Of a stretch of DNA of 64,000 bases, positions 8,616-29,072 are shown piece after piece. The stretch comes from Flavobacterium palustre (lineage in GTDB: Bacteria; Bacteroidota; Bacteroidia; Flavobacteriales; Flavobacteriaceae): the NCBI RefSeq assembly GCF_014639535.1, contig NZ_BMGA01000007.1:124510-188509 (forward strand), written 5' to 3'. The stretch's first letter is position 1. Each line of letters starts with the position of its first letter. The notes under the pieces are model-generated. The model worked only from the letters and a program-made list of their open reading frames with translations. It was not told the DNA's origin and ran no database searches. The translations under genes and the position numbers were made by a program.

Positions 8616-8630
8616 CATAGTTGTACTATG
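8616..8630 (-). promoter_or_regulatory. Small hairpin just after the leader stop codon
   Basis: The 5-bp stem CATAG / CTATG with a 5-nt loop begins 1 nt after the leader TAA. A ribosome resting on the stop codon would cover it. It may be a pause or switch element, but I could not find a convincing antiterminator partner by eye. Confidence 0.4.
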
Positions 8631-8631
8631 A

Positions 8632-8718
8632 TTACTTCTTTCGCTTAAGGCAATAGCTGTGCGTGCTGCACATTGGCATCATACAACACATATTCATTTT
8701 TTTTGTTACTATTTTCAT
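8632..8718 (-). CDS. Met/Cys-rich leader peptide (28 aa) of metY
   Basis: A short frame too small for routine gene calling: ATG at 8716-8718, TAA at 8632-8634. The 28-residue product has six Met and four Cys, concentrated in MNMCCMMPMC (residues 8-17), with one more Cys at 23 and a basic tail LKRKK. Random frames of this length almost never carry ten sulfur residues. It lies directly upstream of an intrinsic terminator and metY. By analogy with amino-acid leader peptides, ribosome stalling at Met or Cys codons would alter folding of the terminator. A metal-binding (copper) peptide is the alternative reading of this composition, but the terminator and the sulfur-metabolism gene favour a leader. 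No strong Shine-Dalgarno is visible, which is normal in this phylum. Confidence 0.8.
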   Translation of the reverse strand: MKIVTKKMNMCCMMPMCSTHSYCLKRKK

Positions 8719-8816
8719 CTCTGTTCTATTTTAAATTTTTAAAAAATGCCTTTTCAAGCCAAACTACTTAATCTATAAAATTAGTCTCTACTTGTTACTA
8801 ATAAAATTGAAATCCA

Positions 8817-9677: not shown

Positions 9678-9750
9678 TTTTAATCTGTTAGTTTTTTAAT
9701 TGAAAAGTTTCTAATCAGATTTACAGAACTGATTATTCCTAATTTTGATA

Positions 9751-9758: not shown

Positions 9759-9954
9759 CAAAAATGTTTTATAAATTCTATAGAAATAGTAGAATTATTT
9801 TTAATAAAAAGAATAAAGCCTTAAAAAACGATAGCTTAACAGCTATTTATCTTTTGCAAAAGAGACAAAAAACAGCAATTTATTTATCATAAATTCTATA
9901 TAAACTAAATGAACCGATTAGATTAAAGCAAAAACAAAATAGCTTACGATAAAA

Positions 9955-10095: not shown

Positions 10096-10752
10096 TCAAT
10101 TCTTAAATCGTATTATCTTCAAATTTGCAAATTTTCCACCTGAATTATCGCCTACAAAAAGACCTATTTTTCCATCCGAAAAAGCACTCAATCGTTTTAC
10201 ACGAAGTACCGGATTAAGATTTTTTTCAACAAAAACAGTTACTTCTGTAGCACTAATTTCGATTCGGGCATGAAACCATTCGTTAGGATTTGGAGCATTG
10301 GGAATCTTTTTTTCAAATTCGGCATTTCTTTCTTTTCTTAATTTTTCCCAAGTAAAATCAGCATGGGCAATATACTGTACCGCATGAATTCGCCGCACGG
10401 AATCTTGGGCATGAAAATTAAATGGTCTAAAATAAACCGCTTCATAAATAGAATCATTTTGACCGTGAAAAGCAATTCCAAGAAAACTTTTTTGAAAAAT
10501 ATCCTGTCCTTTCATATCAATTTCAATAATTCCATTTGAAAAATTTTGGTCTTGAAGCCAGACAATGCCTTCTCCACTTTTCTCATTGATTTCTAAACCT
10601 TTGTATTTTGTTTCAACAAAAGGATGAACTAACCGATTTAAAACGAAAAGCCTGTTCTTTCTAACTTCCATATTCAAATTTATTTTCTTAGTCTGAGCCA
10701 AACTAGCTTCAACAGAAAGCAAGACAACTAAGAATAACAGCTTTTTTTTCAT
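10096..10752 (-). CDS. Secreted concanavalin-like (DUF1080/LamG-type) protein
   Basis: A 218-residue exported protein with signal peptide MKKKLLFLVVLLSVEASLAQ. The body is beta-rich, with a pattern typical of single-domain jelly-roll (concanavalin A/laminin-G-like) proteins: FSNGIIEIDMKGQDIFQKSFLGIAFHGQ, then YFRPFNF, NEWFHARIEISATEVTVFVE, and GKIGLFVGDNSGGKFANLKI at the end. Such domains in Bacteroidota are often annotated as DUF1080 or as glycan-binding or hydrolase-like folds. No catalytic residues can be assigned with confidence. It is the last minus-strand gene after the sulfatase and FGE genes, but 269 nt including an interspersed repeat separate it from FGE, so operon membership is uncertain. 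Confidence 0.7.
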   Translation of the reverse strand: MKKKLLFLVVLLSVEASLAQTKKINLNMEVRKNRLFVLNRLVHPFVETKYKGLEINEKSGEGIVWLQDQNFSNGIIEIDMKGQDIFQKSFLGIAFHGQNDSIYEAVYFRPFNFHAQDSVRRIHAVQYIAHADFTWEKLRKERNAEFEKKIPNAPNPNEWFHARIEISATEVTVFVEKNLNPVLRVKRLSAFSDGKIGLFVGDNSGGKFANLKIIRFKN

Positions 10753-11021: not shown

Positions 11022-12104
11022 TTATTCCACATCCTTAACACAACGAAACCCCAAGTGATTACAAGCACTAGTCGTTTCTCCTTTACCACGGCTTCCGGCA
11101 ACATAGCGGATACAATATTGGTCACTGCACAAATAAGAGCCGCCTCTTTGCACATGTTTTTCTACTCCGGGTTCTTCGGGATCATTACTTATTGAAGGTC
11201 CTTGAGGATTAGCATTAGTACTGTTTTTATAATAATCATCACTATATAAATCATTACACCATTCCCAGACATTTCCTTCCAAATCATAGATTCCATAAGG
11301 ATTTTTAGGAAAAGATTTTACCGGAGCTGCTGCTGCAAAACCGTCTTCGACTGTATTATTATTTGGAAAAGTTCCCTGAAAAATATTAGCCTGCCATTTT
11401 CCATCAGGTTTGAGTTCGCTTCCCCAATAATATTTGGTATGTGGTCTTCCGGCTCTGGCTGCAAACTCCCATTCGGCCTCTGTAGGCAATCGTTTTCCCG
11501 CCCATTCGGCATAGGCCTTGGCATCCAGATAACTCACTTGCACCACAGGATTATTTTCGAGTCCGATAATATTACTTTCCGGTCCACTGGGATGTTGCCA
11601 ACTCGCACCCGGAACATATTGCCACCATTGTTGAATATTTGCTAATGAAACTTTATCCGCAGGAGGAGAAAACACTGCCGAACCCGGTACTAAATTTTCA
11701 ACAGGAACCCCGGGATAATCCTTTGGATCCAATGGTCTTTCGGCTATGGTCACATAATTTGTAGCTTTCACAAAAGCGGCAAATTGAGCATTGGTTACCT
11801 CATGTTCATCAATCCAATAGCCTTTTACACTTACTTTATGAACGGGTTTTGCATCAGGATAATCTTCGGTTCCCATATTAAATTCTCCTCCTGAAACCCA
11901 AACCATTCCGTCGGTGGAAGTTGTTTTATTCTCTTTAACTTTTTTCGAAACAGATTGTAATAATAAGGATTTCTTAGAAGTATTGGCTTTGCACATTGCT
12001 TCGCAACTTGTAGCAGAAACTACAGCAACCGCCTTATTTTCCTGAGCAAAACCTGAGTACAAACCACTTAAAAGTACTCCTATTATTAAACTATGTATTT
12101 TCAT
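11022..12104 (-). CDS. Formylglycine-generating enzyme (sulfatase-maturing, SUMF1/FGE type)
   Basis: A 360-residue exported enzyme that oxidises the active-site Cys of sulfatases to formylglycine. The fold begins at GMVWVSGGEFNMGTEDYPDAKPVHKVSVKGYWIDEHEVTNAQFAAFV and continues through RLPTEAEWEFAARAG and YDLEGNVWEWCND, all hallmarks of the FGE-sulfatase family. Many relatives lack the catalytic cysteines, but here the pair SYLCSDQYC (Cys326 and Cys331 from this start) matches the copper-binding CxxxxC of true FGEs. I chose ATG 12104 because it gives a good signal peptide (MKIHSLIIGVLLSGLYSGFA); an upstream ATG adds 22 residues before it. It follows the sulfatase gene on the same strand by 171 nt, and that protein is its obvious client. 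Confidence 0.92.
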   Translation of the reverse strand: MKIHSLIIGVLLSGLYSGFAQENKAVAVVSATSCEAMCKANTSKKSLLLQSVSKKVKENKTTSTDGMVWVSGGEFNMGTEDYPDAKPVHKVSVKGYWIDEHEVTNAQFAAFVKATNYVTIAERPLDPKDYPGVPVENLVPGSAVFSPPADKVSLANIQQWWQYVPGASWQHPSGPESNIIGLENNPVVQVSYLDAKAYAEWAGKRLPTEAEWEFAARAGRPHTKYYWGSELKPDGKWQANIFQGTFPNNNTVEDGFAAAAPVKSFPKNPYGIYDLEGNVWEWCNDLYSDDYYKNSTNANPQGPSISNDPEEPGVEKHVQRGGSYLCSDQYCIRYVAGSRGKGETTSACNHLGFRCVKDVE

Positions 12105-12178
12105 ATCTACATCTTTTTGGTTGCCTGTTCGACTAACCATATTATTTTGAATATAACCCAAAATCAACAAAACACAGT

Positions 12179-12275: not shown

Positions 12276-13916
12276 TTATTTTTTTGCGGCTGCACCAGGA
12301 ATCAATTCATTCCCCGGTCTTATCTTGCTATATTCTACTACGCCTGTTTTATTAGCCCAATCAAAATATTTAGCAGAAAGATCATTGACAATCGCTTCAT
12401 TTTTTTGTGCCACATTCGTTGTTTCCCCTCTATCCGATTCCAAATCATACAATTCCCATTGATAAGACGGATAAATAGAAACCAACTTCCATTTGCCTTC
12501 TCTAACTGCTCTGTTTCCTGCTCTTTCCCAGAATATTGGCGCACCACGATTTACTTCGGAAGCACCATCTAATAAAACCGGTAACAAACTTTTTCCTGCT
12601 AACGGATTTGATTTTACGCCGTTCAATTCTTTTGGATATTGAATTCCTGCCAATTCGTAGAAAGTTGGTGCTAAATCAATCAAATGTCCAGTTCCTTTAT
12701 CAATTCGGCCTGCTTTAATTTTTGATGGATACCAGGCGATAAAAGGAGAACTGAAGCCGCCTTCATGCATGTTATTTTTATAATCCTGCAAAGGCGTATT
12801 AGACAAATAAGCCCAGTTTTGCTCTTGGTAATCAAAGGAACCTGAAGTTCCAACAGGTCCGCTGTTTTTCACCAAGCCTCTTCTTAAAGGATTGTAAGTA
12901 TTAAAACCACCTTGCGCACCATTATCAGATATAAAAACAATCAAAGTATTTTTGTCTTTCTTCAAAGCTTTTAATTTCTCCAATACTTTCCCCACGTTTT
13001 GATCCATATTATCCACCATGGCTGCATACACTTCCATTTTAGCTTTCCAAAATTGCTTTTCATCATAGGTCAACTTATTCCATTCCGGCACTTCAGGATC
13101 TCTTGGAGCGATGGTTTGGTTTTCCAATAAAATGCCGTTTTCTTTTAATTTCTGAATTCTTTTCTCTCTTAACACATCCCAGCCTTCATCAAATTTGCCT
13201 CTGTATTTAGCAATATCAACCGGTTTTGCCTGTAATGGCCAGTGAGGAGCAGTAAAAGCTAAATACAAAAAGAAAGGTTTATTTTCTTTGTTTTGTTCGT
13301 CCAAAAATTGCACCGCATTATTCCCAATTTCATCTGTAAAATAATAGGAATCGGCTTTTGGATGCAGTTCTTCATTATTTCGAATTAAAGCCACAGGATA
13401 AGGTGTTTTTCCAAAAGGTAATCCATCAGTATTAAAATAATTTGCCCCTCCTTTTAAAATTCCATAAAACTTATCAAACCCTCTTTGATTTGGCCATTGA
13501 GCTTTATCTTCGGAACCTACGTGCCATTTTCCTGACATTAAAGTGCTGTAACCTCCTGAACGGAAAACCTCTCCCAAGGTCAAAGATTCTTTGTTCAAAT
13601 AACCCTGATAAGCAGGTAATCCTAAATTCACATCAAAATAACCAACTCCCGCTTTGTGCTGATACTGCCCTGTTAAAAGCGAAGCTCTTGTAGGAGCGCA
13701 GATAGAATTATTGTAAAACTCGCGTAAACGTGTTCCTTCTTTGGCTAATTTATCCAAATTGGGAGTACTAATTTCTGAACCATAATTCCCTAAGTCAGAA
13801 TAGCCCATATCGTCCACCATAATCAAAACAATGTTTGGTTTTGAAGTTGCAGTTTGCGCCTGACTAAAAAAGCCAAAAGCGAATAAAAGTGGTATTGCAA
13901 TAATCGTTTTTTTCAT
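12276..13916 (-). CDS. Exported Cys-type sulfatase (S1 family)
   Basis: A 546-residue sulfatase with signal peptide MKKTIIAIPLLFAFGFFSQA. Metal ligands appear at once (KPNIVLIMVDDMGYSDLGNYG, Asp35-Asp36). The maturation motif is CAPTRASLLTG, with Cys73 as the residue to be converted to formylglycine. Further family parts are LMSGKWHVG and VFISDNGAQGG with the distal Asp-Asn metal ligands. The C-terminal subdomain includes VREGKWKLVSIYPSYQWELYDLESD. It hydrolyses sulfate esters in the periplasm or at the surface; the exact substrate (aryl or carbohydrate sulfate) is not decidable by eye. It is third in the susC-susD-sulfatase operon, 26 nt after susD, and the FGE gene follows. Desulfation here could feed sulfate to the cell as well as open up a glycan. 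Confidence 0.95.
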   Translation of the reverse strand: MKKTIIAIPLLFAFGFFSQAQTATSKPNIVLIMVDDMGYSDLGNYGSEISTPNLDKLAKEGTRLREFYNNSICAPTRASLLTGQYQHKAGVGYFDVNLGLPAYQGYLNKESLTLGEVFRSGGYSTLMSGKWHVGSEDKAQWPNQRGFDKFYGILKGGANYFNTDGLPFGKTPYPVALIRNNEELHPKADSYYFTDEIGNNAVQFLDEQNKENKPFFLYLAFTAPHWPLQAKPVDIAKYRGKFDEGWDVLREKRIQKLKENGILLENQTIAPRDPEVPEWNKLTYDEKQFWKAKMEVYAAMVDNMDQNVGKVLEKLKALKKDKNTLIVFISDNGAQGGFNTYNPLRRGLVKNSGPVGTSGSFDYQEQNWAYLSNTPLQDYKNNMHEGGFSSPFIAWYPSKIKAGRIDKGTGHLIDLAPTFYELAGIQYPKELNGVKSNPLAGKSLLPVLLDGASEVNRGAPIFWERAGNRAVREGKWKLVSIYPSYQWELYDLESDRGETTNVAQKNEAIVNDLSAKYFDWANKTGVVEYSKIRPGNELIPGAAAKK

Positions 13917-13942: not shown

Positions 13943-15394
13943 TTATAATTTCCAAGCTGGTATTTGATCCAAATTGGGGTTTAAATCCAATTCTCTTTGT
14001 GGTATTGGAAAATGAATGTGTTTAGGCTGTGCATTGGTTTTTCCCGCTGCTTTTAATTTGGCTACAAAATAATCAGAACCTCTTCTGGCTAAATCAAACC
14101 AACGCTGGTATTCAAATACCAATTCTTTTCTTCTTTCTTCAAAAACGGCCTCTCTAAAATCATCTTTCGATAATGTTGGTGAAATAACCGATAACAAAGG
14201 AATCCCCGCTCTTTCTCTCACACGGTCAATGGCTTCATAAGCTGCTGCGGTTGGTCCGTTTTGGTATTCATTTGCTGCTTCGGCATAGATTAACAATACT
14301 TCTGCAAATCGGATAATTGGTGTGTTTTTTGAAGACTGTCCCGGTGAAGCTGGTGTTGTTGGATCAAAATATTTATTAAAATGCGGAGTCGTTGTATAAG
14401 TTTGTCCATTGGTTGGACTTACATATTGAGTGGCAAAAGTGATATACTTTCGTTTGTCATTCTCTGCAAAAGATTCAAAAAGTCCTCCCGCCGTATGCAA
14501 AGCATCTGCCTGATCGCCAGCAATTCCCGGCACTGAAGTAGGAGCCGATGTAGAAGCCAACATATTTCCATTCCAGTTAGAAAGCCCTTTAAATTGTGCG
14601 GAATAAATATGTTCTTTACCATTTTTAGTAGCTACATTAAAAACATCAGCATAATTTTCGAATAAATCATAGACCTCACTATCAATCACTTCTTTACTTT
14701 TTTCTGCTGCCAGTTGCCACTTTTTTTGCGTCAAATAGACTTTAGACAAAATACTTTTGGCAGCACCAGATGTTGGTCTTCCGTTAATTTGCTGTACCAC
14801 AGGCAATGCTTCGGCATCCAATAAATCAGTTTCAATTTGGGCATAAACAGCCGCTTCCGGAGTATTGCTAACATTCAAAGCTTCGGCAGATAAAGTGGTC
14901 GTTTCATGTAAAACCAATGGTACATTTCCAAACCATCGCACAATATTGAAATACAATACGGCTCTTAAAAACTTCGCTTCGTTAACCAAATCCTGATCTT
15001 TTTGTGAATTCAAATTTGGATTTTTCGAAATGTTATCAATCGCAATATTCGCCCGGTTAATTCCGTCGTAACTTTGACGCCAAAGTTCCAGCATACGGTC
15101 ATTTGAGGCATCGTGCGTCAGATTAGACAACGCTCTAACATGCGCATTTCTGGCACGCGGTCCTGCTTCGTAATCATCCGTAGCCATTTCTGTCGAAATC
15201 TGAATTAAACGATTGTACAAAGTATGCGTACCACTGTTCATCGCGTTATGAATGGCAATTACCGCCGCTTCAGCATCTTCGGTTGTTTTATAAAAATTAT
15301 TTGCTGCAATAAATGCTTTTGGATCTTCGTCCAATGAATTACAAGCACTGATTGTAAAAAGAATCAGTAAACTTAATATGCTTATTTTTTTCAT
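13943..15394 (-). CDS. SusD/RagB-family surface glycan-binding lipoprotein (locus 1)
   Basis: A 483-residue lipoprotein. The lipobox ends the signal peptide MKKISILSLLILFTISAC (Cys18). The SusD fold has its TPR-rich N-terminal half (TTEDAEAAVIAIHNAMNSG; SYDGINRANIAIDNISKN; FLRAVLYFNIVRWFGNVPLVLHE) and the C-terminal signature RFAEVLLIYAEAANEYQNG with RERAGIP and ERRKELVFEYQRWFDLARRG. SusD proteins cap the SusC channel and bind the ligand. The gene starts 10 nt after susC ends. The acceptor substrate is unknown. The only enzyme co-transcribed is a sulfatase, so the ligand may be a sulfate-bearing molecule. Confidence 0.95.
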   Translation of the reverse strand: MKKISILSLLILFTISACNSLDEDPKAFIAANNFYKTTEDAEAAVIAIHNAMNSGTHTLYNRLIQISTEMATDDYEAGPRARNAHVRALSNLTHDASNDRMLELWRQSYDGINRANIAIDNISKNPNLNSQKDQDLVNEAKFLRAVLYFNIVRWFGNVPLVLHETTTLSAEALNVSNTPEAAVYAQIETDLLDAEALPVVQQINGRPTSGAAKSILSKVYLTQKKWQLAAEKSKEVIDSEVYDLFENYADVFNVATKNGKEHIYSAQFKGLSNWNGNMLASTSAPTSVPGIAGDQADALHTAGGLFESFAENDKRKYITFATQYVSPTNGQTYTTTPHFNKYFDPTTPASPGQSSKNTPIIRFAEVLLIYAEAANEYQNGPTAAAYEAIDRVRERAGIPLLSVISPTLSKDDFREAVFEERRKELVFEYQRWFDLARRGSDYFVAKLKAAGKTNAQPKHIHFPIPQRELDLNPNLDQIPAWKL

Positions 15395-15404: not shown

Positions 15405-18400
15405 TTAGAATGTTACACTTAAACCAGCCGAAATACTTTTAGCTGTTGGATAAATTCCGGTATCTGTTCCCGGAGAAATTGAACTTCCGTTAGTTACTTC
15501 AGGGTCAAATCCACTGTAATTGGTAAATGTGATTAGATTTTCTCCTACCAGTCTCAATTTCACAGCAGCCAATTTGAATTTATCTATTAATGCTTTAGGG
15601 AAATTATAGCTCAGTGTGATGTTTTTAAATCGGACAAAAGAACCGTCTTCTACAAATCGATTTGAAAATACCGGTGCAGGATCTAATTTAGCACGAGGCG
15701 TAGTGGTACTTGGATTTGTTGGTGTCCAGGCATCTAAAGCCGAAGTGGAAGCATTTTGCTGTCCGTTGAATAATTCTAATGCCTGCGCATTTCCGTTTAG
15801 GATATCATTCCCTACAGAACCCTGAAGTATTATTCCTAATTCAAAATTTCTAAAGTTGAAATTATTCGTGAATCCAAAAGTAAAATCCGGCTGTGCATTA
15901 CCAATAGTTGTTCTGTCAGCAGCAGTTGTAAAAGCGCCGTCGCCATTGATGTCTTTATACAAACGGTCACCAGCTTTTGGAGTTGCATTTCCTGTAAAAA
16001 CGCCTTTGGTTGCTACATCAGCAGTTTGCAAAATTCCATCCGTTACTGCTCCATAAAATGAACCTAATGGATCACCTACTTTTAAAATGTAATTTCCAAA
16101 AGTGTAGAATTCAGCATCATTACCTAAAGCCAAAACTTTATTTTTGTTGAAGGCAATATTAAAATTAGAGGTCCATGCAAAATCGCCGTTGCTTAAAGAA
16201 GTATTAATTCCTAACTCGATTCCCTGATTTTGCACCGAACCAAAATTTTGCAAAGAAGAGGTAAACCCGCTGGTATATGGAATTTGAACGTCTAACAATA
16301 AATTCTTAGTCGTTTTGCGGTAAGCATCCAGCGTTAGAAACACTTTATTGTTGAAAATGCCTAAGTCAATTCCGGCATCAAACTGGTTTGTTAATTCCCA
16401 TCCTAAATCGTCATTTGCAATTCTTGTTGGCGTAAATCCGGTATAAATTTGGTCACCAAAAAGATACTTTACACTACTCAATGTTGACAACGATTGGTAT
16501 TCCCCAATTTCCTGATTTCCTGTTGAACCGTAGCTCGTCCTGAATTTCAAACTGTTAATTACATCAGACAACGGACTAAAAAAGTTTTCTCTGTCTATTT
16601 GCCAGGCCGCTGCCACAGAAGGAAAATAGCCCCATTTATTGTTTTTCCCAAATCGGGAAGAACCATCAGCTCTTATACTTGCTGTAAAATAATATTTGGA
16701 ATCATAGTTATAATTCAGCCTCGACAGGTACGAATTCAACGCCCATTTACTTTCACCCGAAGTAGGAATCAATGCCAAATTACCGCTTTGCAAACTATTA
16801 TTTGATGTCACATCATTCACAAATTGTTGCGAACCTGTAGTTACAAAATCTCTGGTAGAACTTTGCTGTGTATAACCTGCCAAAAGGTTAAAACTATGTA
16901 CATCTGAAAACACTTTAGTGTAGGTTAAGGTATTCTCGTTCAGCCATGTTTTGCTGTTACTGTTTCCTATTTTGGCTTCTCCATTAGTAATTAAACCTTC
17001 ATAAATTGTCGAAGGAATATAAGTACTCTCTTTGTTAGCCAGGAGATCAGCTCCAAAAGAAACTTTGAACACCAAATTTTCCAGAATATCATATTCGCCA
17101 AAAACGGTTCCTAAAATCCTTGTGTTTACTGCTTTATTTTTGCGTTCGTTTAGAGTAGCAATTGGGTTTGAGAATATATTTTCAAAAGGATTTCTCAAGG
17201 TATAACTACCATCAGCTTCATAAATGGTAGCAGTAGGAGGCATACTTAACAAAGCGGTAATTAATCCGGAAGGAGCAACTTTTGATGTAGTTTCAGCTAC
17301 AGATAGATTGACTCCGAATCTTGATTTATCACTTAGTTTTGAATTCAGATTAATTCGACCACTCAAGCGTTCAAAACCAGTATTTTTTATAATTCCTTCC
17401 TGATTGAAATAGTTTCCGGAAATAGCATATTTTGTTTGGTTATTTCCACCCGAAACACTCAATTGATGATTTTGGGTTTGCGCAGTTCTAAAAGCGGCAT
17501 CCTGCCAATCTACTCCTTTTCCTAATTGTGCAATTTGAGCATCCGACAGGTATTGATTCGTTCCTCCCGCCGGATTTGTATCGTATAAAGCGGCATTTCT
17601 AAGTCTTGAAAAACCTGCAGCATCTAATACGGATACTTTTTTACGAACTTCCTGTTGCCCTAAAGAGTAATCGTAGTTTACAGCCATAATATTCGATTTT
17701 CCTTTTTTAGTAGTGACAATCACTACGCCATTAGCTCCTCTGGAACCGTAAATAGCAGTTGATGAAGCATCTTTTAAAACCGTAATCGATTCAATATCTG
17801 CCGGATTGATGGCAGAAAGGGGATTTGTCGGACTACCGCTCAAAACTCCTGAAGTAACATCTGAATTGTAAATTGGAAAACCATCAATAACATAAAGCGG
17901 CTCGTTTCCTCCTTGTATAGAACTTCCTCCACGAACCCTAATACTCAATCCGGATCCCGGTTGTCCTGATGTTTGAGTCACATTGACACCAGCAACCGAT
18001 CCTTGAAGCGCACTCTCTAAACTGCGCTGAGTAGATTTTAAGGCTTGAGTAGAAACGGTTTCGGCTGCTCCGGTATAATCTTTTTTCGAAGTAGTTCCGT
18101 AACCTATAACTACTACTTCATTTAGTTCCTTTACATCTTCTTTTAGTACAATTTGTATGAACTTGTCATTTACAATTTGCTCTTTATTTATATAACCTAT
18201 AGAACTAACTACTAATATATAGGGGAAACTTTGGCCTGTTTGAAAACTAAATTTTCCGTCTAAATCAGTAATAACACTATGGGTAATTCCTTTAATTTGA
18301 ACAGTAACACCAGGAATGGGTTGTTTTGTAACTTGATCTATAACCACACCATCCAGGGTTGAATTTATTTTGGGTTTTGTGCTCTGTGCATTAATCCCTA

Positions 18401-18452
18401 TTGAGACTAGAAAAACTCCCAGCCATAAAAGTATATTTAATATTTTTTTCAT
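15405..18452 (-). CDS. SusC/RagA-family TonB-dependent transporter (locus 1)
   Basis: A 1015-residue outer-membrane transporter. The signal peptide ends near INAQ (residue 23). A carboxypeptidase-regulatory-like domain follows (about 32-115, [23 protein letters not shown]). The plug domain contains [35 protein letters not shown] and the SusC signature [27 protein letters not shown]. The rest is the 22-strand barrel ending in an aromatic C-terminus (SAGLSVTF). It imports a ligand bound by SusD using TonB energy. It heads an operon with susD and a sulfatase. A consensus promoter lies about 530 nt upstream, leaving a very long leader that contains a poly-Cys mini-ORF (separate entries). Confidence 0.96.
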   Translation of the reverse strand: [1015 protein letters not shown]

Positions 18453-18547
18453 TACTTTGTTTTAGTTTAAATAATAAGGAGCCTGAAGGCTGATTTTATC
18501 AACTTTCTTTTTTCCTTTTTTGAGATGAACATTTCTTTTTAAACTTC

Positions 18548-18573
18548 GCCATTTCTGTTGCCACAGAAATGGC
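18548..18573 (+). terminator. Plus-strand terminator-like hairpin in the susC leader
   Basis: The perfect 11-bp stem GCCATTTCTGT / ACAGAAATGGC has a 4-nt loop and runs into seven Ts on the plus strand only. No plus-strand gene lies upstream for more than 12 kb, so either an unannotated antisense RNA ends here, or the hairpin acts within the minus-strand leader and the T-run is coincidental. Confidence 0.5.
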
Positions 18574-18819
18574 TTTTTTTATTTACAACACATTAACTTC
18601 ATTTCTTTTATTTTTTGATTAGTACTATTTTGATATTTTTTAGATTCAAAAAGAATATAATTTTTCTATACCCTAAGAAACGATCTTTAGATCTTCAATA
18701 GCATTTCTTATATACTTTTACCACTAAATTTTTGTGTAATTCTTCTTTTAAAAATGGGTTGGTTTTGTTTAATAATTCCAAGTTCTTTTTAACCTTAAAT
18801 ATAACTTATACAAAACCCA

Positions 18820-18841: not shown

Positions 18842-18895
18842 CTAACAGCAACAACACATTCGTCCAGGATTGACGAATACCGGTTTTAATTGCAT
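18842..18895 (-). CDS. Poly-cysteine leader peptide (17 aa) of the susCD-sulfatase operon
   Basis: A mini-ORF on the minus strand: ATG at 18893-18895, TAG at 18842-18844, product MQLKPVFVNPGRMCCCC. The last four sense codons are TGT TGT TGC TGT, all Cys, directly before the stop. It begins about 80 nt after the predicted transcription start of the susC operon. Poly-Cys mini-ORFs ending at the stop codon are known in mycobacteria as cysteine-responsive attenuators of sulfur genes, and this has the same design. Here the downstream operon encodes SusC, SusD, a sulfatase and FGE. I infer that ribosome progress over the Cys codons reports cysteine supply. Synonymous Cys codon use (TGT and TGC) argues against a simple nucleotide repeat. 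The downstream antiterminator or occlusion mechanism is not resolved. Confidence 0.75.
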   Translation of the reverse strand: MQLKPVFVNPGRMCCCC

Positions 18896-18982
18896 GATCA
18901 AAAAAGAGGTGTTTTTGATAGTTTTCAAAGCGTCTGTTTTTATTAATGATTATCGTTTTTTAAATTCTACTAATTCGATAGA

Positions 18983-19013
18983 CAAAGTTAAGTTAAAATT
19001 CAAACTGACCAAA
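18983..19013 (-). promoter_or_regulatory. Consensus promoter of the susCD-sulfatase operon
   Basis: On the minus strand TTTG (19010-19013) is followed after exactly 19 bp by TAACTTTG (18983-18990), a full match to the Bacteroidota TTTG-N19-TAnnTTTG promoter. It points at the poly-Cys mini-ORF and susC. No other full match is present between it and susC. Confidence 0.8.
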
Positions 19014-19295: not shown

Positions 19296-20192
19296 TCAAA
19301 CCATCATAAACTTTTTGATTTCTTTATTCGAAATTTTAGGATTAGCTCCTTCATGCCCTGCAACTAAAGCTCCAATAGCACAGGCATAATTCAAAGATTT
19401 CTGCGGTGATTTTCCTTTCATTAATCTTAAAATCAGAGTCGCCAAAAAAGAATCTCCGGCTCCAACGGTATCCACCACTTTTATAAAATAACCGCTATTG
19501 TAATAAAACTTATCATTGTAATACAAAACAGCTCCAAAGGCTCCTTTGGTTACACAAATTTGTTTGGTATTGGTTCTTTCGGCAATGAATTTAATATTTT
19601 GCTCAAAAGAATTGTACGGAGATTCTAATTTCTGACTGATTTCATACAATTCTTCGTCATTAAGCTTGATAAAATCAGCCTTTGACATTAATTCGATAAG
19701 TACTTCTGTTGTGTAATAAGGAGCTCTCAAATTAGCGTCTAAAATTTTATATTTTGCCTTTTCCAAAAGACCGTATAATGTTGATCTGGAAACCTCATCA
19801 CGGCAAATCAAACTTCCAAAAACAAAGGCATCTGCTTCAGAAACTTTTTTATCCATTTCTTTTGTTGGTACAATTTTATCCCAGGAAGAAGGATAATGAA
19901 TATCATAAGAAGCATTTCCTTTATCATTAATCATAACATGAACTACTCCACTCATATAATCCGAATCCACTTGTATAGCATCGGAACTCATATTGTGGTC
20001 TTCGATGTATTTAACTATATCCTGGCCATTTTCATCATTACCAATTTTACTTATTATTGTTGAAGAAACTCCCAGAGAATTCATTCTCAATGCTACATTT
20101 AAAGGTGCTCCGCCAATTTTTTTATGCGTTGGAAAAACATCCCATAAAACTTCTCCAAAGCAAACCACATTCAATCCGTGTTTTTTATTCAT
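19296..20192 (-). CDS. PfkB-family carbohydrate kinase, probable fructokinase
   Basis: A 298-residue cytosolic ribokinase-family sugar kinase without signal peptide. The N-terminal part has the substrate-site glycines in KIGGAPLNVALRMNSLG. The C-terminal signature DTVGAGDSFLATLILRLM holds the anion hole and the catalytic Asp (GAGD). The start VVCFGEVLWDVFPT is close to bacterial fructokinases. Given its place as the last gene of an operon encoding a GH32 beta-fructosidase and a sugar porter, the natural substrate is fructose, giving fructose 6-phosphate (or 1-phosphate) for glycolysis. It starts 23 nt after the GH36 gene. Other PfkB substrates such as tagatose or ribose remain possible. Confidence 0.88.
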   Translation of the reverse strand: MNKKHGLNVVCFGEVLWDVFPTHKKIGGAPLNVALRMNSLGVSSTIISKIGNDENGQDIVKYIEDHNMSSDAIQVDSDYMSGVVHVMINDKGNASYDIHYPSSWDKIVPTKEMDKKVSEADAFVFGSLICRDEVSRSTLYGLLEKAKYKILDANLRAPYYTTEVLIELMSKADFIKLNDEELYEISQKLESPYNSFEQNIKFIAERTNTKQICVTKGAFGAVLYYNDKFYYNSGYFIKVVDTVGAGDSFLATLILRLMKGKSPQKSLNYACAIGALVAGHEGANPKISNKEIKKFMMV

Positions 20193-20215
20193 CTTTTAAA
20201 TCTTTAAATTCTAAA

Positions 20216-22435
20216 TTATTTTGCCTCCTCGATTTCTAACACCACACTTGTTCTTTTTAAAGTAACGTTTGGGTTAAAGCCTACTTTCATCAGATAATCT
20301 CCGGTAAAGTATTCCTCCCCTTTGATTGTTGAACTCGTTTCAGGATATAAATTAATCTCTTTGATTTTATATTTTTTCAAAGGATCTAAACCTTTCATAA
20401 TTACAGGTCGTTTAGTGGCAGTTATTGCATATCTGTTATTGATCAGGTAATTAAACATAATTGCCTTGCTTTTATTTTTATTTACATAGATCAATGCTGC
20501 TATATCATTTTCATGTGGATTAACCAATCGAAACATATCACCATGCCATACAATATCTTTGAATGAATTATAATTCTCTACGGCTTGTTTACAAAATACT
20601 TTATCATTAGCTTCTAATTCGCCGGCTACAATATCAAAACCTAACTTGCCCATACTGGCCACATCTACTCTGAATTTCAGAGGTTGTTTTCCCCAATCGG
20701 TAACGTGATTGCATGTTGCAATAGCAGGAAAAAAATAGGAGTAATCCCATTGTAGAAAAATGCGTTCTATAGGATCGGTATCATCACTTGGCCAGAATTC
20801 CGTAAAATATTTCAAAAACTCATAATCACCACGACCACCACCACCGGAACAAAGCATTATAGGAACTTTTGGATATTTAGCACGAATGCGTTGCAGCACT
20901 TTATACAATCCTTTTACATAATCAACATACAGATTGGATTGTGGAATTCCCTTTTTATGAAGATAAGCCGAATACGCATTATAAATAACGGCATTACAAT
21001 CCCATTTAATAAAAGCCAATTCCGGATTTTTCACGAATAAATCATCTACAATTCCATAAACAAAATCCTGAACTTGCGGATTTGACAAATCCAATACGAG
21101 TTGGTTTCTATAATAAATCTCAGGTCTTTCAGGTTGTCGTATTACCCAATCCTGATGTTTTTCGTATAACTCACTTCTGGGATTTACCATTTCAGGTTCA
21201 ATCCAGATACCAAATTTCACTCCTTCTTTTTTAGCTTCTTTAACCAAATAACCCAATCCACTTGGCAGTTTCTTTTTATTTTCCTGCCAGTCTCCTAATC
21301 CTGCATCGTCGTTATTTCGTGGGTATTTATTTCCAAACCAGCCATCGTCTAATAAAAACATATCAACCCCCAAATCTTTGGCGTCTTTAAACAAGGCTTT
21401 TATTTTATTTTCATCAAAATCAAAATAAGTGGCCTCCCAATTATTCAACAAAGTCAGACGCTCTCCTTCACCATCTAATATTCGGTATTTTCTTGCCCAA
21501 TCGTGTAAATTTCTACTTGCCTCTCCGGTACCGTTATTCGATAAAGCATAAATTAAGGAAGGTGTTTTAAAGGTTTCATTTGGAACCAATGAATATTCGG
21601 AAGCAAACGGGTTGATTCCTGCAATAAAACGAAGGTTTTTATGCGAATCAATCTCAAAATCCAATTTAAAATTACTGCTCCATGCTAATTGACCCAACAT
21701 AACTGTCCCTTCATTTTCGGAAGCCGGTTTCCCAAATGACACTATAAAATTAGGTGTTTGCAACAGCATTGCTCTGGTTCCCAGTTTAGAATCTATTGTT
21801 TTAATCCCTTGGGTCAACTTTGTTTCCTGAGGCTGCATTTCTTTTAGATATTCTCCCTGAAAACTCGTGAGATAGAAATCTTTATGGGCAAAATATAAAT
21901 TAGCCGAAGCGTATTTTTGTAATACAACCGGCTTTTTCTCCTTGTGTTTGATTTCTGTCCATTGTTCGATTACATTCTCTTTTTCCCAAACCTTATAAAA
22001 CAAAGTCACTTCAAAAGCATAAACAGGATCTTTAAGAAGAATACTGGTAACTGAAATATTGGCATCTAATTTTTCTTTTTTATGACTCACATATTTGAGT
22101 TCTAAAGAAGGATTTCCATCGGCATGTTTTACCTGAATGGCTGGTTCAGACAAATTCCAGGTTCCCGCAGGAGTATAAGCCGAATTATAAATTCCGGCAT
22201 TGGATTCATCATAATTATAGCTTGCAGCAACATTCCTGTACTCCACTTCATTTTGTAATGGCTTGCCAAAATAAACCATTCGCAATCTGTTATTGCTATC
22301 TGTTTGCATTAATAACACATTGTTTTCGGTAGCAATAGGAATGATTGTTTGTGCTGTTAAATTGCAGACACAAATAACCAAACTAAAAAGCAATCCTATT
22401 TGATTCCTTTTATATGTTTGTCGTTTCTCTCTCAT
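20216..22435 (-). CDS. GH36 alpha-galactosidase, exported
   Basis: A 739-residue enzyme with a signal peptide (hydrophobic core GLLFSLVICVCNLTA). It has the N-terminal beta-sandwich (to about residue 320), the TIM barrel from about 330 (MFLLDDGWFGNKYPRNNDDAGLGDWQENKKKLPSGL), and a C-terminal beta domain. The nucleophile lies in FIKWDCN (Asp479), and the acid/base in WPSDDTDPIERI. The AGLGDW and RNQLVLDLSNPQV segments are typical of GH36. It removes terminal alpha-1,6-galactose from raffinose, stachyose or melibiose in the periplasm. It lies between susD and the fructokinase gene. With the GH27 enzyme at the other end, the operon carries two unrelated alpha-galactosidases, perhaps for different chain lengths or cellular locations. 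Confidence 0.93.
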   Translation of the reverse strand: MREKRQTYKRNQIGLLFSLVICVCNLTAQTIIPIATENNVLLMQTDSNNRLRMVYFGKPLQNEVEYRNVAASYNYDESNAGIYNSAYTPAGTWNLSEPAIQVKHADGNPSLELKYVSHKKEKLDANISVTSILLKDPVYAFEVTLFYKVWEKENVIEQWTEIKHKEKKPVVLQKYASANLYFAHKDFYLTSFQGEYLKEMQPQETKLTQGIKTIDSKLGTRAMLLQTPNFIVSFGKPASENEGTVMLGQLAWSSNFKLDFEIDSHKNLRFIAGINPFASEYSLVPNETFKTPSLIYALSNNGTGEASRNLHDWARKYRILDGEGERLTLLNNWEATYFDFDENKIKALFKDAKDLGVDMFLLDDGWFGNKYPRNNDDAGLGDWQENKKKLPSGLGYLVKEAKKEGVKFGIWIEPEMVNPRSELYEKHQDWVIRQPERPEIYYRNQLVLDLSNPQVQDFVYGIVDDLFVKNPELAFIKWDCNAVIYNAYSAYLHKKGIPQSNLYVDYVKGLYKVLQRIRAKYPKVPIMLCSGGGGRGDYEFLKYFTEFWPSDDTDPIERIFLQWDYSYFFPAIATCNHVTDWGKQPLKFRVDVASMGKLGFDIVAGELEANDKVFCKQAVENYNSFKDIVWHGDMFRLVNPHENDIAALIYVNKNKSKAIMFNYLINNRYAITATKRPVIMKGLDPLKKYKIKEINLYPETSSTIKGEEYFTGDYLMKVGFNPNVTLKRTSVVLEIEEAK

Positions 22436-22547
22436 AATTCCGGTTTAAAATATTTTAAGACAATGTGAAAAAAGCTAAAGGCAAATAAACACCTGCCTTT
22501 AGCTAAATAAAAAAACACTAATTTAACAACAATTATTAACCTTATTT

Positions 22548-24293
22548 TTAATACCCGGGATTTTGCGTGTATAATCCTCCTGTAAAATCAATTTCTCTTT
22601 GAGGTATTGGATAATATTCATCTCTACCTGCTGTAAAATGAGCACTTGACAAGAAACCTTTTCTGTCCTCTTCAACATCAAGATAAGCATTTAACACCGG
22701 TTCTGCAATTCCCCATCGTACCAAATCAAAGAATCTTGGACCCTCCATACCAAATTCCAATCTTCTTTCAAACATCAATGCTTTCATAGCATATTCTTTT
22801 GAAGGGAAAGAAAGATAAGGTTCAACTTTATAAACATTTGAAGCTCCTGCGGCTAAAGTCATTGCTGTACTTGCAGCGGCTCTGGCTCTAATTTGATTAA
22901 TAATTGGTAAAGCTTCTGCATATCTGTTTAACTGTATTAAAGCTTCTGCTTTAAATAATAACACATCGGCATATCTAATAAAATCTACGTTTTTAGATGT
23001 TCCTACAAATGGTCCGTTTTTAACATAACAAGAACAATCTGGAGATTGTTGCTCTTTCATATTTCCAAAGTAGCCATAAACACCCGGATCACGAGCCCAA
23101 CTAGATTTGTAAACCATATCCCCTGCCGTTTTCAAGGTATTTTTGTATTTGAATGGTCTGCCTGGAATCCCTACTGTATGGTCAATTCTTGGATCCAGTG
23201 TTTTGCCGGCAGCAATTGGCGCACTTCCATCCACAACATTTACCGTGATAACATTAGAATCATTAAATGTATCCAACAATGGTAAACCGGTAACGGCATC
23301 TGTTTGAAACGCATTTACCATGTTCTGACTTGCCATGTGGAAACCACAACATCCGTAAAGCGGGTTACCATGAGGCGAATTCAATCCGGTTACAAAACTT
23401 ACTCTTCCAGTATTAGTCCCGTCATTAATAGAAAACTGAACTGCCCAGATAGATTCCGGACCATTATCACGACCGTCTAAGAAGTTATATCCAAAATCTG
23501 ATTCTAAAGCACCTGTTACCTGATCAGCATAATCAATCACTTCCTGTAATCTGGCTGCATTGATGTTTATTACCTGATGCTCATCATTCTGTTCATAAGC
23601 CTGATACAATCTTAATTTTGCCAAATAAGCCGATGCTGCATTTTTATCCGCTCTCCCCACCTGATCCTGTGAAGGAGGTAAATTTTCATGAGCAAAAATA
23701 AAATCATCAGCAATTTTATTCCACAAAGCATCCGAAGTTAAATCATTTGAAGTTTGTAAAATTTGCTCTTTAGTAAGTTCTTCTGTAATGAAGGGCACTT
23801 TATTAAACAACAACTTCAACATAAAGTAAGAATGCGCTCTTAAAAAACGTAATTCTGCCTGTCTGGTTTTCTTTAACGGATAATCTGTTTCTGAGAACGC
23901 ATTAATTACAGACAAAGCAAAGTTAGCTCTGGAAATTGCCTTATAGTGATTCGTCCAGGTTCTAGGCAACATCCAATCTCCATAATCCGGAATGGTTAAA
24001 TTATATTGCTCGTATCTGTCCACAACATCTACGTCGCCACGACCACCCCCGCCTTTATAAGCATCATCAGATCGCACACTACCGTAAACCCACTGACTGG
24101 TAATTGGCCCAATCATTTCGTCATTTCCAATTGCAGCATAAGCAGCATTAACAAGAGCATCAGCATTGGCTATAGTAGCAACCTGATCTGGCTTTAATGC
24201 TCCTTTAGGTTCATAATCTAAAAAATCTGAGCTACATGAAGCCAGCAATAAAGCTGACATGAAGCTAACAACTATTTTATTATATTTTTTCAT
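22548..24293 (-). CDS. SusD/RagB-family lipoprotein (raffinose-type locus)
   Basis: A 581-residue surface lipoprotein with lipobox MSALLLASC (Cys20 region). The SusD fold shows ANADALVNAAYAAIGNDEM, HYKAISRANFALSVIN and RFLRAHSYFMLKLLFNKVPFI in the N-terminal half, and the C-terminal RYADVLLFKAEALIQLNRYAEALPIINQIRARA plus MFERRLEFGMEGPRFFDLVRWG. It would bind the oligosaccharide over the SusC pore. It begins 9 nt after susC ends, so the two are co-translated. Compared with the locus-1 SusD it is about 100 residues longer, mostly in the middle loops that usually shape ligand specificity. Raffinose-family or related fructosides are the inferred ligands from the neighbouring enzymes. Confidence 0.95.
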   Translation of the reverse strand: MKKYNKIVVSFMSALLLASCSSDFLDYEPKGALKPDQVATIANADALVNAAYAAIGNDEMIGPITSQWVYGSVRSDDAYKGGGGRGDVDVVDRYEQYNLTIPDYGDWMLPRTWTNHYKAISRANFALSVINAFSETDYPLKKTRQAELRFLRAHSYFMLKLLFNKVPFITEELTKEQILQTSNDLTSDALWNKIADDFIFAHENLPPSQDQVGRADKNAASAYLAKLRLYQAYEQNDEHQVININAARLQEVIDYADQVTGALESDFGYNFLDGRDNGPESIWAVQFSINDGTNTGRVSFVTGLNSPHGNPLYGCCGFHMASQNMVNAFQTDAVTGLPLLDTFNDSNVITVNVVDGSAPIAAGKTLDPRIDHTVGIPGRPFKYKNTLKTAGDMVYKSSWARDPGVYGYFGNMKEQQSPDCSCYVKNGPFVGTSKNVDFIRYADVLLFKAEALIQLNRYAEALPIINQIRARAAASTAMTLAAGASNVYKVEPYLSFPSKEYAMKALMFERRLEFGMEGPRFFDLVRWGIAEPVLNAYLDVEEDRKGFLSSAHFTAGRDEYYPIPQREIDFTGGLYTQNPGY

Positions 24294-24302
24294 GAGAATT
24301 AA

Positions 24303-27300
24303 TTAAAAGTTTAAGTTAACACCTAATGAGAATGTTGTAGGTACTGGTATTGAGTTGATATTAGTACGTTCCGGATCAGAACCGATATATCCTTTTGGAG
24401 TAAACCAAAATAAGTTCTCTCCCTGAGCATATATTCTACAACGAGTAATAAAACCGGTTTTTTCAGTTATACTCTCCGGCAATGAATATCCAATTTGGAT
24501 GTTTCTAACTTTAAAATAAGAATTGTTTCTTAATAAATAATCGGACATATTAGCGTAATCCGTATTATTTGTTGTCAGCGAAGGTATGTTACTACTTGTA
24601 TTTGTTGGAGACCAGGCATTCAATGTTCCAGGCCCAGCATTTTCTCTTCCCTGAACAAAATTGTTCCAATAGATATAAGGATCAACTCCTTTTCTTCCTG
24701 TTACTCCTGAACCAAAGATGGACATATCAATATTTTTATAAGCCAAACTAATATTGATACCATATTCCAATTTAGGTTGTGTAGAACCAATAAACGTTCT
24801 GTCATCAGAATTGATTACCCCGTCATTATTAATATCAACAAATTTAATACCTCCTAATCTGGAAGCCACCTGGGTTGCATGTGAGTCAATATCCTCCTGT
24901 GACTGAAACAATCCGTCTGTCTTGAAACCAAAAATTTCAAACTGTGAATGACCAACAATTGAATTTGCTGCTGTACCCGGATATGCCGATCTTACTTCTT
25001 CAGGTAATTGAGTAATTTTATTTTTTGTCGCACCAAAATTGGTCGTCACATTAAAATTCAATCCGTTTTCTAAAGTATCTGAATATCCTAAAACCAATTC
25101 CCAACCTTTGTTAGAAGTAGAGGCTCCATTCACAAAACGCTGTTGTCCTTCTCCTAAAACCGAAGCAACTGGTGGTTTAATTAAAATTCCTTCTGTTTTT
25201 CTGGTAAAATAATCGAAGGAACCTGATAATTTGTTATCTAAAAAAGCAAAATCCAATCCCACGTTGACCTCTTTAGTAGATTCCCATTTCAACCCTGAAT
25301 TGGCAGCCTGGATAGAAACAAAACCAGATGGTAAATTTCCTGTATTAACGCCACCCAAATCATAGGCAGTACCCACATTATAATAAATATTGAAAAAATC
25401 AGGTATAAAAACATTTTGGTTCACTCCGTATCTGGCTTCAAACAAACCTAAACTGGCAAAATCTCCAATAGATTGATTTCCTACCTCACCATAACCGGCA
25501 CGAAGTTTTAATGACGAAAGCGCTTTAACATTTTTCATAAAATCTTCATTACTGATTTTCCAACCTACTGTAGCAGCCGGAAAAATACCGTATCTGTTGT
25601 CTTCTCCAAATCGGGAAGAACCATCACGTCTGATAGTAAAAGTTGCCAAATATTTATCCGAAAAGGCATAATTTACTTTTCCAAACTGAGAAAGCAATCG
25701 GCTTCCTGTTGTTAGTCCATTTGAGGTTCTGGATCCTGAAGCTGCCGATAATACAAAATAAGATTCTGATTCTACAGCAAAATTCTCTCCACGGGCCAGT
25801 AAACTATGAAAATCTGTTTTAACCGATTCCACACCCACCAGGACACCAATTTTATGATCGGAAAGCTTTACATTATAATTCAAAGTATTCGAAATGGTTA
25901 AACTTGAATATTTATTAGTATCATGAGTTAGGCTATTATTTGTTCTGTTAACAGATCCATTACTAACCATAGGTTCAATATCTTTTCTGCTGAAATCATT
26001 AAAATCCATACCAATACTATTTCTGTAAGTAAGATTTTTGATTAAATCAATTTCTGTAAAAACATTTCCATACAAGGAAATTCTTCTGGTATTATCCCAT
26101 CTGTTTAAATACTGCATCAACAAAGGGTTATTTCTATCAGAATATCCGGAACCTAATGGTCCACCGTATCCTCCGGAATTAGTATAAACCGGAATGGTTG
26201 GTGCCAATGAAATAGCCAAAGCCGGAACCGGAGAATTACCAACATCGTTAGCGGCTAATCTTTCATTCGATTGTGTAAACTGTGAATTAATACCAAATCG
26301 CACCTTGTCGTTAAACAACTTGAAGTTAGCATTCAATCTTGCAGTGTATCTTTCAAAATTGGTATATTTCAGCATTCCTGTATTATCCAGATAACCTAAA
26401 TTCAACATGGCATTGGATTTCTCTGTACCTCCTGAAACAGACAGGTCATTATTGATAACAAATCCTGTTTTATATACTGTTTCCTGCCAATCTGTATTTC
26501 CTGCCGGCATATTAGTATCTCCACCTACAAAAGGTTTAACTGACACACTATTTAATACCGGATTATTTAGGTCATTATTCCAGTCAAAATCATAGATTTC
26601 ACCATATCCATCCTCAGGAAGTGCTCCATCATTAACTGATGCCTGCCACAAAACCTTCCCTCTATCCAATGAATTCAGCATTCTATACCTTTGTTTTTTC
26701 TCTGACATAGCAGAAATGCTGGTACTGTAAGACACATTCATTCTTTCCCCTTTGAAAGCATTTTTGGTTGTTACCACAATAACACCATTGGCCGCTCTGG
26801 AACCATAAATAGAAGAAGCAGAAGCATCCTTTAATACCTGAACCGATTCTATGGCACTAGGATTTAAACTGGCAAAAACTTCAGGTCTTACCGTAGGAAC
26901 ACCGTCAATTACATACAATGGATCAGTATTTCCCAGGGTGCTTACCCCTCTAATTAAAATCTTGCTGCTGGTACCACTTGGATCTCCCGATTTTTCGATA
27001 GACAAACCGGCAACCCTACCCTGTAGTGCCTGCATGGCATTCCCCGAACTCATACTTTGTCCCTCAATAGGTTTCATCTCAACAACAACTACAGCTCCAG
27101 TTACATCGACTTTTCGTTCCTTAGAATATCCAGTTACCACAACCTCGGTTAATTGCTGTGATTCGGATTTTAAAATAATATTAATCGTTTCCTGACCATT
27201 TACTTGTACAGTTTGATTTGTAAAACCCACATAACTAAAAGTTAAAGTTGCTTTTGGATCTACATTTCTAAGTTCGTATTTCCCGTCTATATCAGTTATA

Positions 27301-27455
27301 GTCCCTTTATTAGACCCTGATACTAATACAGATACTCCGGGAAGTGACATGCCGTCTTCAGAAGAAGTTACGACTCCTTTTACTCCAATATTTTGGGCCG
27401 AAAGTGAAAAAAAGGACCCCATTAGAATTAAGTAAAGAATGATTTTTCGTTTCAT
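24303..27455 (-). CDS. SusC/RagA-family TonB-dependent transporter (raffinose-type locus)
   Basis: A 1050-residue outer-membrane transporter. The signal peptide ends SLSAQ (residue 20). The regulatory-like domain (about 25-100, VKGVVTSSEDGMSLPGVSVLVSG) is followed by the plug with GYSKERKVDVTGAV, IRGVSTLGNTDPLYVIDGVPT and the signature VLKDASASSIYGSRAANGVIVVTTK. The barrel ends FSLGVNLNF. It sits in the middle of the operon, 12 nt after the GH32 gene and 9 nt before susD. It should import the intact or partly trimmed oligosaccharide using TonB. The enzymes on both sides point to alpha-galactosyl-sucrose oligosaccharides, although a fructan could also use this transporter. Confidence 0.96.
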   Translation of the reverse strand: MKRKIILYLILMGSFFSLSAQNIGVKGVVTSSEDGMSLPGVSVLVSGSNKGTITDIDGKYELRNVDPKATLTFSYVGFTNQTVQVNGQETINIILKSESQQLTEVVVTGYSKERKVDVTGAVVVVEMKPIEGQSMSSGNAMQALQGRVAGLSIEKSGDPSGTSSKILIRGVSTLGNTDPLYVIDGVPTVRPEVFASLNPSAIESVQVLKDASASSIYGSRAANGVIVVTTKNAFKGERMNVSYSTSISAMSEKKQRYRMLNSLDRGKVLWQASVNDGALPEDGYGEIYDFDWNNDLNNPVLNSVSVKPFVGGDTNMPAGNTDWQETVYKTGFVINNDLSVSGGTEKSNAMLNLGYLDNTGMLKYTNFERYTARLNANFKLFNDKVRFGINSQFTQSNERLAANDVGNSPVPALAISLAPTIPVYTNSGGYGGPLGSGYSDRNNPLLMQYLNRWDNTRRISLYGNVFTEIDLIKNLTYRNSIGMDFNDFSRKDIEPMVSNGSVNRTNNSLTHDTNKYSSLTISNTLNYNVKLSDHKIGVLVGVESVKTDFHSLLARGENFAVESESYFVLSAASGSRTSNGLTTGSRLLSQFGKVNYAFSDKYLATFTIRRDGSSRFGEDNRYGIFPAATVGWKISNEDFMKNVKALSSLKLRAGYGEVGNQSIGDFASLGLFEARYGVNQNVFIPDFFNIYYNVGTAYDLGGVNTGNLPSGFVSIQAANSGLKWESTKEVNVGLDFAFLDNKLSGSFDYFTRKTEGILIKPPVASVLGEGQQRFVNGASTSNKGWELVLGYSDTLENGLNFNVTTNFGATKNKITQLPEEVRSAYPGTAANSIVGHSQFEIFGFKTDGLFQSQEDIDSHATQVASRLGGIKFVDINNDGVINSDDRTFIGSTQPKLEYGINISLAYKNIDMSIFGSGVTGRKGVDPYIYWNNFVQGRENAGPGTLNAWSPTNTSSNIPSLTTNNTDYANMSDYLLRNNSYFKVRNIQIGYSLPESITEKTGFITRCRIYAQGENLFWFTPKGYIGSDPERTNINSIPVPTTFSLGVNLNF

Positions 27456-27467
27456 AATTTAGATAGT

Positions 27468-29069: not shown

Positions 29070-29072
29070 GAT

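Follow-up and report, generated by a model that had tools for sequence, protein, structure and literature searches.

Attenuators of the trp/his type carry control codons in a leader peptide and use an intrinsic terminator, and SusCD systems are usually viewed as carbon-uptake machines that are switched by glycans. In mycobacteria, polycysteine-encoding leaderless short ORFs are reported to act as cysteine-responsive attenuators (Canestrari et al. 2020), and candidate Cys leader peptides have been predicted for cys operons of Mycobacterium and Propionibacterium and for cbs of Bifidobacterium, with runs of Cys codons near the stop and without a terminator hairpin, for which Rho-dependent termination was suggested as for tna (PMC1262725). 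For Flavobacterium psychrophilum, leader-peptide attenuation has been proposed for amino-acid biosynthesis operons (PMC9723704). Among the matches listed in a search of the open-licence PubMed Central literature there was no description of Cys leaders in Bacteroidota.

We analysed a stretch of 64,000 nucleotides from Flavobacterium palustre (the window), in which a short frame ending in Cys codons stands upstream of a susC gene (Table 1), and consider it likely that this leader is a cysteine-sensing attenuator. Cysteine sensing is well supported by comparison with relatives, which draws on the promoter motif, the first leader ORF (ORF1) with its frame, the Cys codons, a stem, a second ORF (ORF2), a hairpin and the sulfur-related targets; translation of ORF1, ribosome stalling, the direction of the response and the type of termination are what we infer. 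In line with the original prediction of a susCD-sulfatase-FGE operon, the downstream genes matched the respective families, the susD-like gene staying below the SusD cut-off and being placed by its position. No Rfam family reached its gathering score in the 64-kb window, and comparison with the plasmid collection returned no match. Elsewhere in the window, the translations at 19296-31777 read as sugar-kinase-like, alpha-galactosidase-like and GH32-like genes, a sugar transporter and a second susCD pair, which together look like a sucrose/raffinose-type locus. On the minus strand at 8573-8718, the leader of metY (O-acetylhomoserine sulfhydrylase) holds a Met/Cys-rich ORF (MKIVTKKMNMCCMMPMCSTHSYCLKRKK, then stop) followed by a strong intrinsic terminator, making it a candidate classical Met/Cys attenuator for a neighbouring pathway; by eye, similar leaders with terminators stand upstream of metY at four other loci (L212, L213, L214 and L216).

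Table 1. Coordinates of the leader elements, the downstream genes and related features (window positions unless a locus is named).
Feature	Position	Strand	Evidence or remark
Putative promoter motif TTTG-N19-TAACTTTG, Bacteroidota-type	18983..19013	-	sequence motif
Conserved box TTTGTCTATCGAATTAGTAGA	18966..18986	-	seen in loci chosen by the Cys pattern
Leader ORF1, TTG start, 28 codons, ends MCCCC-stop	18842..18928	-	44/44 Flavobacterium cassettes
Stem-loop within ORF1, 3' arm abuts the Cys codons	18858..18878	-	covariation, 44 rows
Cys codon run and stop, ATG TGT TGT TGC TGT TAG	18842..18859	-	
ORF2, second Cys mini-ORF, MKLMCCK-stop	18579..18602	-	ORF at that place before 39/40 hairpins
Hairpin GCCATTTCTGTGGCAACAGAAATGGC	18548..18573	-	stretch 18530-18600, z -5.47
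susC	15405..18452	-	NCBIfam TIGR04056, 907.7 bits
susD-like gene	13943..15394	-	NanU 97 bits, SusD 61 bits, both below cut-offs; position after susC
Sulfatase	12276..13916	-	Pfam PF00884, 213.7 bits
FGE-like sulfatase-modifying factor	11022..12170	-	Pfam PF03781, 254.7 bits
Protein with weak 3-keto-disaccharide hydrolase match	10096..10752	-	Pfam PF06439, 23.7 bits, cut-off 26.8; possibly part of the operon
Box-core match upstream of TauE-type sulfite exporter gene	9778-9792		opposite orientation
SAM-I and Cys-run ORF, Chitinophaga (L053)	8582-8804		75.3 bits
SAM-I and Cys-run ORF, Cyclobacteriaceae (L058)	9524-9737		61.9 bits

The mini-ORF was originally read as a frame of 17 codons running from an ATG at 18895 to the TAG at 18842 on the minus strand. 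This frame is real and ends MCCCC, but the conserved frame is longer: it begins at the TTG at 18928, spans 28 codons and translates as LKTIKNTSFLIMQLKPVFVNPGRMCCCC up to the stop. A relative (L002) has ACG in place of the internal ATG and an intact TTG frame, and a conserved block upstream of the shorter frame, TTGAAAAC, contains the TTG start. We selected 45 cassettes by a relaxed promoter-box pattern together with a Cys-tailed ATG ORF; one, from Cnuella (L054), has no in-frame TTG/GTG start, and the remaining 44, all from Flavobacterium, carry a TTG (38) or GTG (6) in frame with the Cys tail and without an intervening stop, even though such a start had been no criterion in their selection. 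Four further ORFs, found by the start itself, brought the collection to 48 Flavobacterium ORFs (47 distinct), and the distinct ones are 28 (42 ORFs), 29 (3) or 27 (2) residues long and begin with TTG (42) or GTG (5). In the 28-codon class (42 distinct ORFs), codon 25 specifies Cys in 41 (21 TGT, 20 TGC), codon 27 in all 42 (25 TGT, 17 TGC) and codon 28 in 40 (30 TGT, 10 TGC). Exchange between TGT and TGC is common at these terminal positions and a change of residue is rare; since at least two Cys among the last five residues were demanded of every ORF1 row, the presence of Cys is partly due to selection, which leaves the synonymous exchange unaffected. Differences between the ORF1 rows number 5896, 6584 and 8987 at the three codon positions.

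Downstream of ORF1, the original prediction had placed a long untranslated leader, and this description is contradicted by ORF2 (18602-18579) and the hairpin, which lies 5 bases beyond the end of ORF2: with a second Cys mini-ORF predicted within it, the leader is not simply untranslated. Of 40 distinct hairpin contexts, 39 have an ORF that stops no more than 20 bases before the hairpin; its last five residues include Cys in 36 of the 40, and it has at least two Cys in 21 of the 40. In Larkinella the arms of the hairpin are changed and the pairing is retained. An ORF beginning inside the hairpin (MARLKEHL...) was rejected because, by eye, its frame is broken in some relatives, and we therefore treated this stretch as RNA. 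No U-run follows the hairpin on the sense strand and one is found on the plus strand, so that an antisense terminator is possible; read on the plus strand, window positions 18548-18573 resemble an intrinsic terminator, and an antisense RNA covering the start of susC may terminate there.

The RNA around the Cys codons offers several pairings. The stem within ORF1 comprises 5 consensus pairs, with 98.2% of cells paired in 44 rows and changes on both sides in 5/5 pairs; its covariation is 0.492 versus 0.231 in shuffled alignments, none of 500 shuffles reaches 0.492, and many of the changes are differences between the group of our genome and the remaining rows. The codons used in ORF1 favour base-pairing between its first codons and the Cys-codon segment (mean z -1.90 against synonymous recoding, 70/72 below zero), and by the same measure the mean z of the Cys codons with the hairpin is -0.88 (41/58 below zero), values that overstate independence, as do the other z-scores and fractions given here, since the rows are related and the genome sets overlap. 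When the whole leader is searched for the stretch that pairs best with the Cys codons, the 3' arm of the hairpin comes first in 46 of 61 leaders, and the mean z of the Cys codons against the leader is -1.17 with a hairpin and +0.31 in the 14 leaders without one. In our own leader these alternative pairings are no better than chance (z -0.32 for the ORF1 start, -0.15 for the leader and +0.69 for the hairpin), and in the MCMCC group the Cys codons pair poorly with the hairpin. The pairings of the Cys codons suggest a resemblance to the competing pairings of an attenuator in most Flavobacterium relatives, our own genome excepted, and the choice of codons in ORF1, besides that of residues, appears to be under constraint. 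On a list that was drawn up loosely and takes in other kinds of leader, the CTGTT pentamer with which ORF1 closes occurs in 60/61 leaders with a hairpin and in 17/22 without; its conservation is suggestive of pairing and also fits a C-ending codon 26 in the hairpin-less leaders.

These data bear on the possibility that ORF1 encodes a nascent-chain arrest peptide, whose own sequence would stall the ribosome on a small molecule (cysteine, sulfide or metal) rather than for lack of charged tRNA. Such a peptide might be expected from the conservation of ORF1 beyond its Cys residues in most Flavobacterium rows (for example MKTTESISYYILPKKYTYNTFCYMCFCC), yet in the group of our genome and in other genera the Cys tail is retained with different residues ahead of it, and the apparent constraint on codon choice likewise argues against this explanation, which we regard as unlikely compared with a sensor of Cys-tRNA charging.

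Turning to the start of the transcript, the consensus promoter that had been noted upstream of the mini-ORF is present as described, with TTTG at 19013-19010 and TAACTTTG at 18990-18983 of the minus strand, 19 bases apart; TTTGTC follows the TA in all five loci that had been found via the Cys pattern, without selection for a promoter. The conserved box at this promoter is probably the operator of a sulfur regulon, as we infer from its neighbours in the genome, although in the 44-row alignment its conservation is partly a matter of selection because the rows were picked with a relaxed box pattern, and a putative operator at this place makes the leader unlikely as the sole control. The core of the box has six exact matches in our genome, three of which lie at this susC, at the TauE gene of the window and in a region with cysH and a second TauE gene near an Rrf2-family gene, and three of which have no adjoining sulfur gene. 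With at most one mismatch the core is found 63+52 times in the same genome versus 53+66 times for the reversed control, by which we rejected the box as a frequent operator there and take the sulfur-regulon operator as a lead only. In the cysH region (L176, 6034-8353), cysH and a divergent TauE gene have box copies between them and the Rrf2-family gene adjoins; its product is a candidate regulator of sulfur genes, scoring below the CymR cut-off (82.6 versus 195).

A search with the promoter box alone, which ignores the Cys codons, matched 22 places in 14 of 395 Bacteroidota genomes, 13 of them Flavobacterium, a set in which some genomes are probably of the same species as those of the SusC search described below. 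At all 21 Flavobacterium places (13 genomes) a Cys-tailed ATG frame follows 90-111 bases past the box, and at the single match outside Flavobacterium among the 395 genomes no Cys ORF was found; with 13 of the 14 matching genomes belonging to one genus, the box was rejected as a phylum-wide element. A transcription factor acting at the box, for which the Rrf2 protein encoded near cysH comes to mind, could by itself control the operon, the leader ORFs only tuning translation or mRNA stability. The conservation of the box and the exact core matches near sulfur genes speak for such control, but the equal number of exact matches without a sulfur gene, the lack of any excess of the core over its reversed control at up to one mismatch and the low CymR score of the Rrf2 protein weaken it, and it leaves unexplained the conserved Cys codons, the presence of two Cys ORFs and the Cys ORFs of other orders; we judge it quite improbable as an alternative to attenuation.

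The original prediction had proposed a search upstream of susC genes for short frames ending in Cys codons. Named genomes were searched for SusC and yielded 80 loci, of which 76 were examined (3 had too little upstream DNA and 1 was partial), and a Cys-tailed ORF was defined as one of 5-44 amino acids with at least 3 Cys in its last 5 residues, at most 1300 bases upstream, the expected counts coming from 40 shuffles each. Such an ORF precedes susC in 19 of 21 loci whose SusC is at least 58% identical (0.1 expected), in 6 of 14 at 42-57% identity (0.1 expected) and in none of 41 below 42% (0.4 expected). The matches come from Flavobacterium, Chitinophaga, Cnuella, Pontibacter, a Cyclobacteriaceae genome, Mucilaginibacter, Larkinella and a Chitinophagaceae genome. 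The Cys run and its frame are kept in Flavobacterium and Cys-tailed ORFs recur in other orders; the absence of conservation that would have refuted the original prediction is not what we observe, and its interpretation is supported. The cassette sequence itself was seen in Flavobacterium only, and the other genera share the Cys tail alone. One locus (L071), whose ORF1 ends MCNCF, is counted among the 19 through its second ORF; a Chitinophaga locus (L053) has a further gene separating susC from its Cys ORF, and two Pedobacter leaders end CCCCSMQ, just short of the definition. In the top class such an ORF is lacking from L040, which has two Cys only, and from L038, the closest relative (SusC 94% identical), in which ORF1 has been lost before this susC and ORF2 and the hairpin are kept. 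In L038, a second susC of the same locus retains ORF1, and the site of the loss lies upstream of 9950.

A sequence model of the cassette matched 65 places in 34 of 150 Flavobacterium genomes, with one match in our own genome; several of the matched genomes had supplied rows to the model and one of the 34 is likely a chance match. Of the 65 matches, 30 came as loci; 20 further stretches were read, and the genes behind these 20 are susC (8), metY (5), cysE (3), sulfatase (2) and encapsulin (1), the last match (L211) being likely due to chance. Two of the 8 susC genes are of the present type and 6 belong to a paralogue (27-29% identical), for which a Cys-tailed ORF1 was found in 2/6 leaders and not in 4/6; among the metY matches, one (L222) has this kind of ORF1 and 4/5 have a different, Met/Cys-rich leader. 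A cysE product (L045) passed the EpsC cut-off (154.5, cut-off 150) and stayed below that of TIGR01172 (175.8 versus 210.65). The encapsulin match (L223) leads to a family 2A encapsulin (NF041162, 528.5 bits) and then to its cysteine desulfurase cargo (NF041166, 887.4 bits). Family 2A encapsulin genes stand downstream of a Cys leader at L223 (1040-3878) and at L145, the latter by a match of its N-terminus only. A new encapsulin family has been linked to sulfur metabolism (PMC8049743). With a Cys leader before family 2A encapsulin, this nanocompartment would be linked to the supply of cysteine in Flavobacterium. A scan of 12 related loci found a SAM-I riboswitch 9-10 bases upstream of the Cys ORF in two, L053 and L058, and these leaders are possibly two-input sensors of SAM and cysteine. 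Judged by their family matches, the target genes of the cassette fit a role in the supply of sulfur and cysteine.

Their Cys-rich tails could also make the mini-peptides small proteins that bind a metal or thiol, an idea to which we assign very little probability, as the Cys residues occupy a constant position in the leader, immediately ahead of the stop, and the downstream genes that were read are sulfur genes. That the TGT/TGC run arose by chance is refuted by its conservation (the Cys ORFs at 21/21 Flavobacterium box matches, the ORF1 rows and the susC classes), even though ATGTGYTGYTGYTGYTRR, which occurs once in the 3.97 Mb of our genome (reversed-pattern control 0), was found in 7 of 150 genomes of the genus (reversed control 1) with 5 of the 7 exact MCCCC matches, ours included, before a SusC-like start in alike surroundings and 2 (L003 and L006) within unrelated frames, where they look like chance and were set aside.

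We propose that ORF1, a leader peptide of 28 codons, would be translated from a sulfur-regulated promoter, and that a ribosome would stall on the Cys codons directly before the stop when charged Cys-tRNA is scarce. The stalled ribosome would bar the Cys-codon segment from pairing with the ORF1 start or with the 3' arm of the susC-side hairpin, the leader would be kept open and RNA polymerase could read into susC, susD, the sulfatase and FGE genes. With ample cysteine the ribosome would depart and the Cys-codon segment re-pair, and the transcript would most likely end early without an intrinsic terminator, probably via Rho; ORF2 may serve as a second check close to the gene. In a perfect-stem scan of 48 leaders, ORF1 was followed by a sense-strand intrinsic terminator in one, which was not ours, so that a terminator of this kind was rejected and the switch does not appear trp-like. 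In the 70 bases after ORF1, C minus G is 0.102 (positive in 67/72), compared with 0.025 before the gene (48/72 positive) and 0.043 upstream of the promoter (54/70), a bias of the kind expected for a C-rich, G-poor site of Rho loading, but the 80 bases after the stop of our own leader are G-rich (C6, G15), which counts against a Rho site there.

More broadly, tandem Cys-run leader ORFs with competing Cys-codon pairings might couple Cys-tRNA charging to SusCD-sulfatase uptake, cysE, metY and an encapsulated cysteine desulfurase in several Bacteroidota orders, and be joined in some genera to SAM-I as a two-input cysteine/SAM sensor, a generalization for and against which we see about equal weight. 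The comparison points to a class of SusCD systems whose expression would follow the supply of sulfur, sensed by a ribosome reading Cys codons; if so, some sulfatase loci would serve sulfur rather than carbon nutrition, the Cys-run leader peptides would extend from Actinobacteria to another phylum, and such leaders could act as a simple sequence mark for locating sulfur-scavenging loci.

Like attenuators of the trp/his type, the present leader has control codons in a leader peptide, and competing pairings are suggested in most of its relatives though not in our genome; it differs in that its control codons lie at the very end of the ORF and its own leader has no intrinsic terminator. The leader-peptide attenuation proposed for the same genus differs from it, as no Cys runs or SusCD are described in the sections of that source on which we draw (PMC9723704). 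With the actinobacterial leaders there is more in common. Like the reported mycobacterial poly-Cys leaders (Canestrari et al. 2020), it has a short ORF with Cys codons upstream of an operon, and of the features of actinobacterial poly-Cys attenuators we found a Cys run near the stop, targets for sulfur acquisition (by family matches) and no intrinsic terminator. Unlike the leaderless mycobacterial ORFs, the TTG/GTG start lies at least 40 bases past the -7 element (55 bases from 18983 to 18928 in the window; 48-64 from the first base in relatives), so that, judged from the promoter motif, the start is not leaderless; here there are also a second Cys ORF, the hairpin and the SusCD-sulfatase, encapsulin, cysE and metY targets, and the phylum is another one. 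Cys codons near the stop and no intrinsic terminator (47/48 here) are likewise common to the candidate leaders of cys operons and cbs, which, as described there (PMC1262725), belong to Actinobacteria and to assimilation operons rather than SusCD outer-membrane uptake, with no second ORF described. What is known, then, are the Cys-run leaders of Actinobacteria, and what is new here is their Bacteroidota form.
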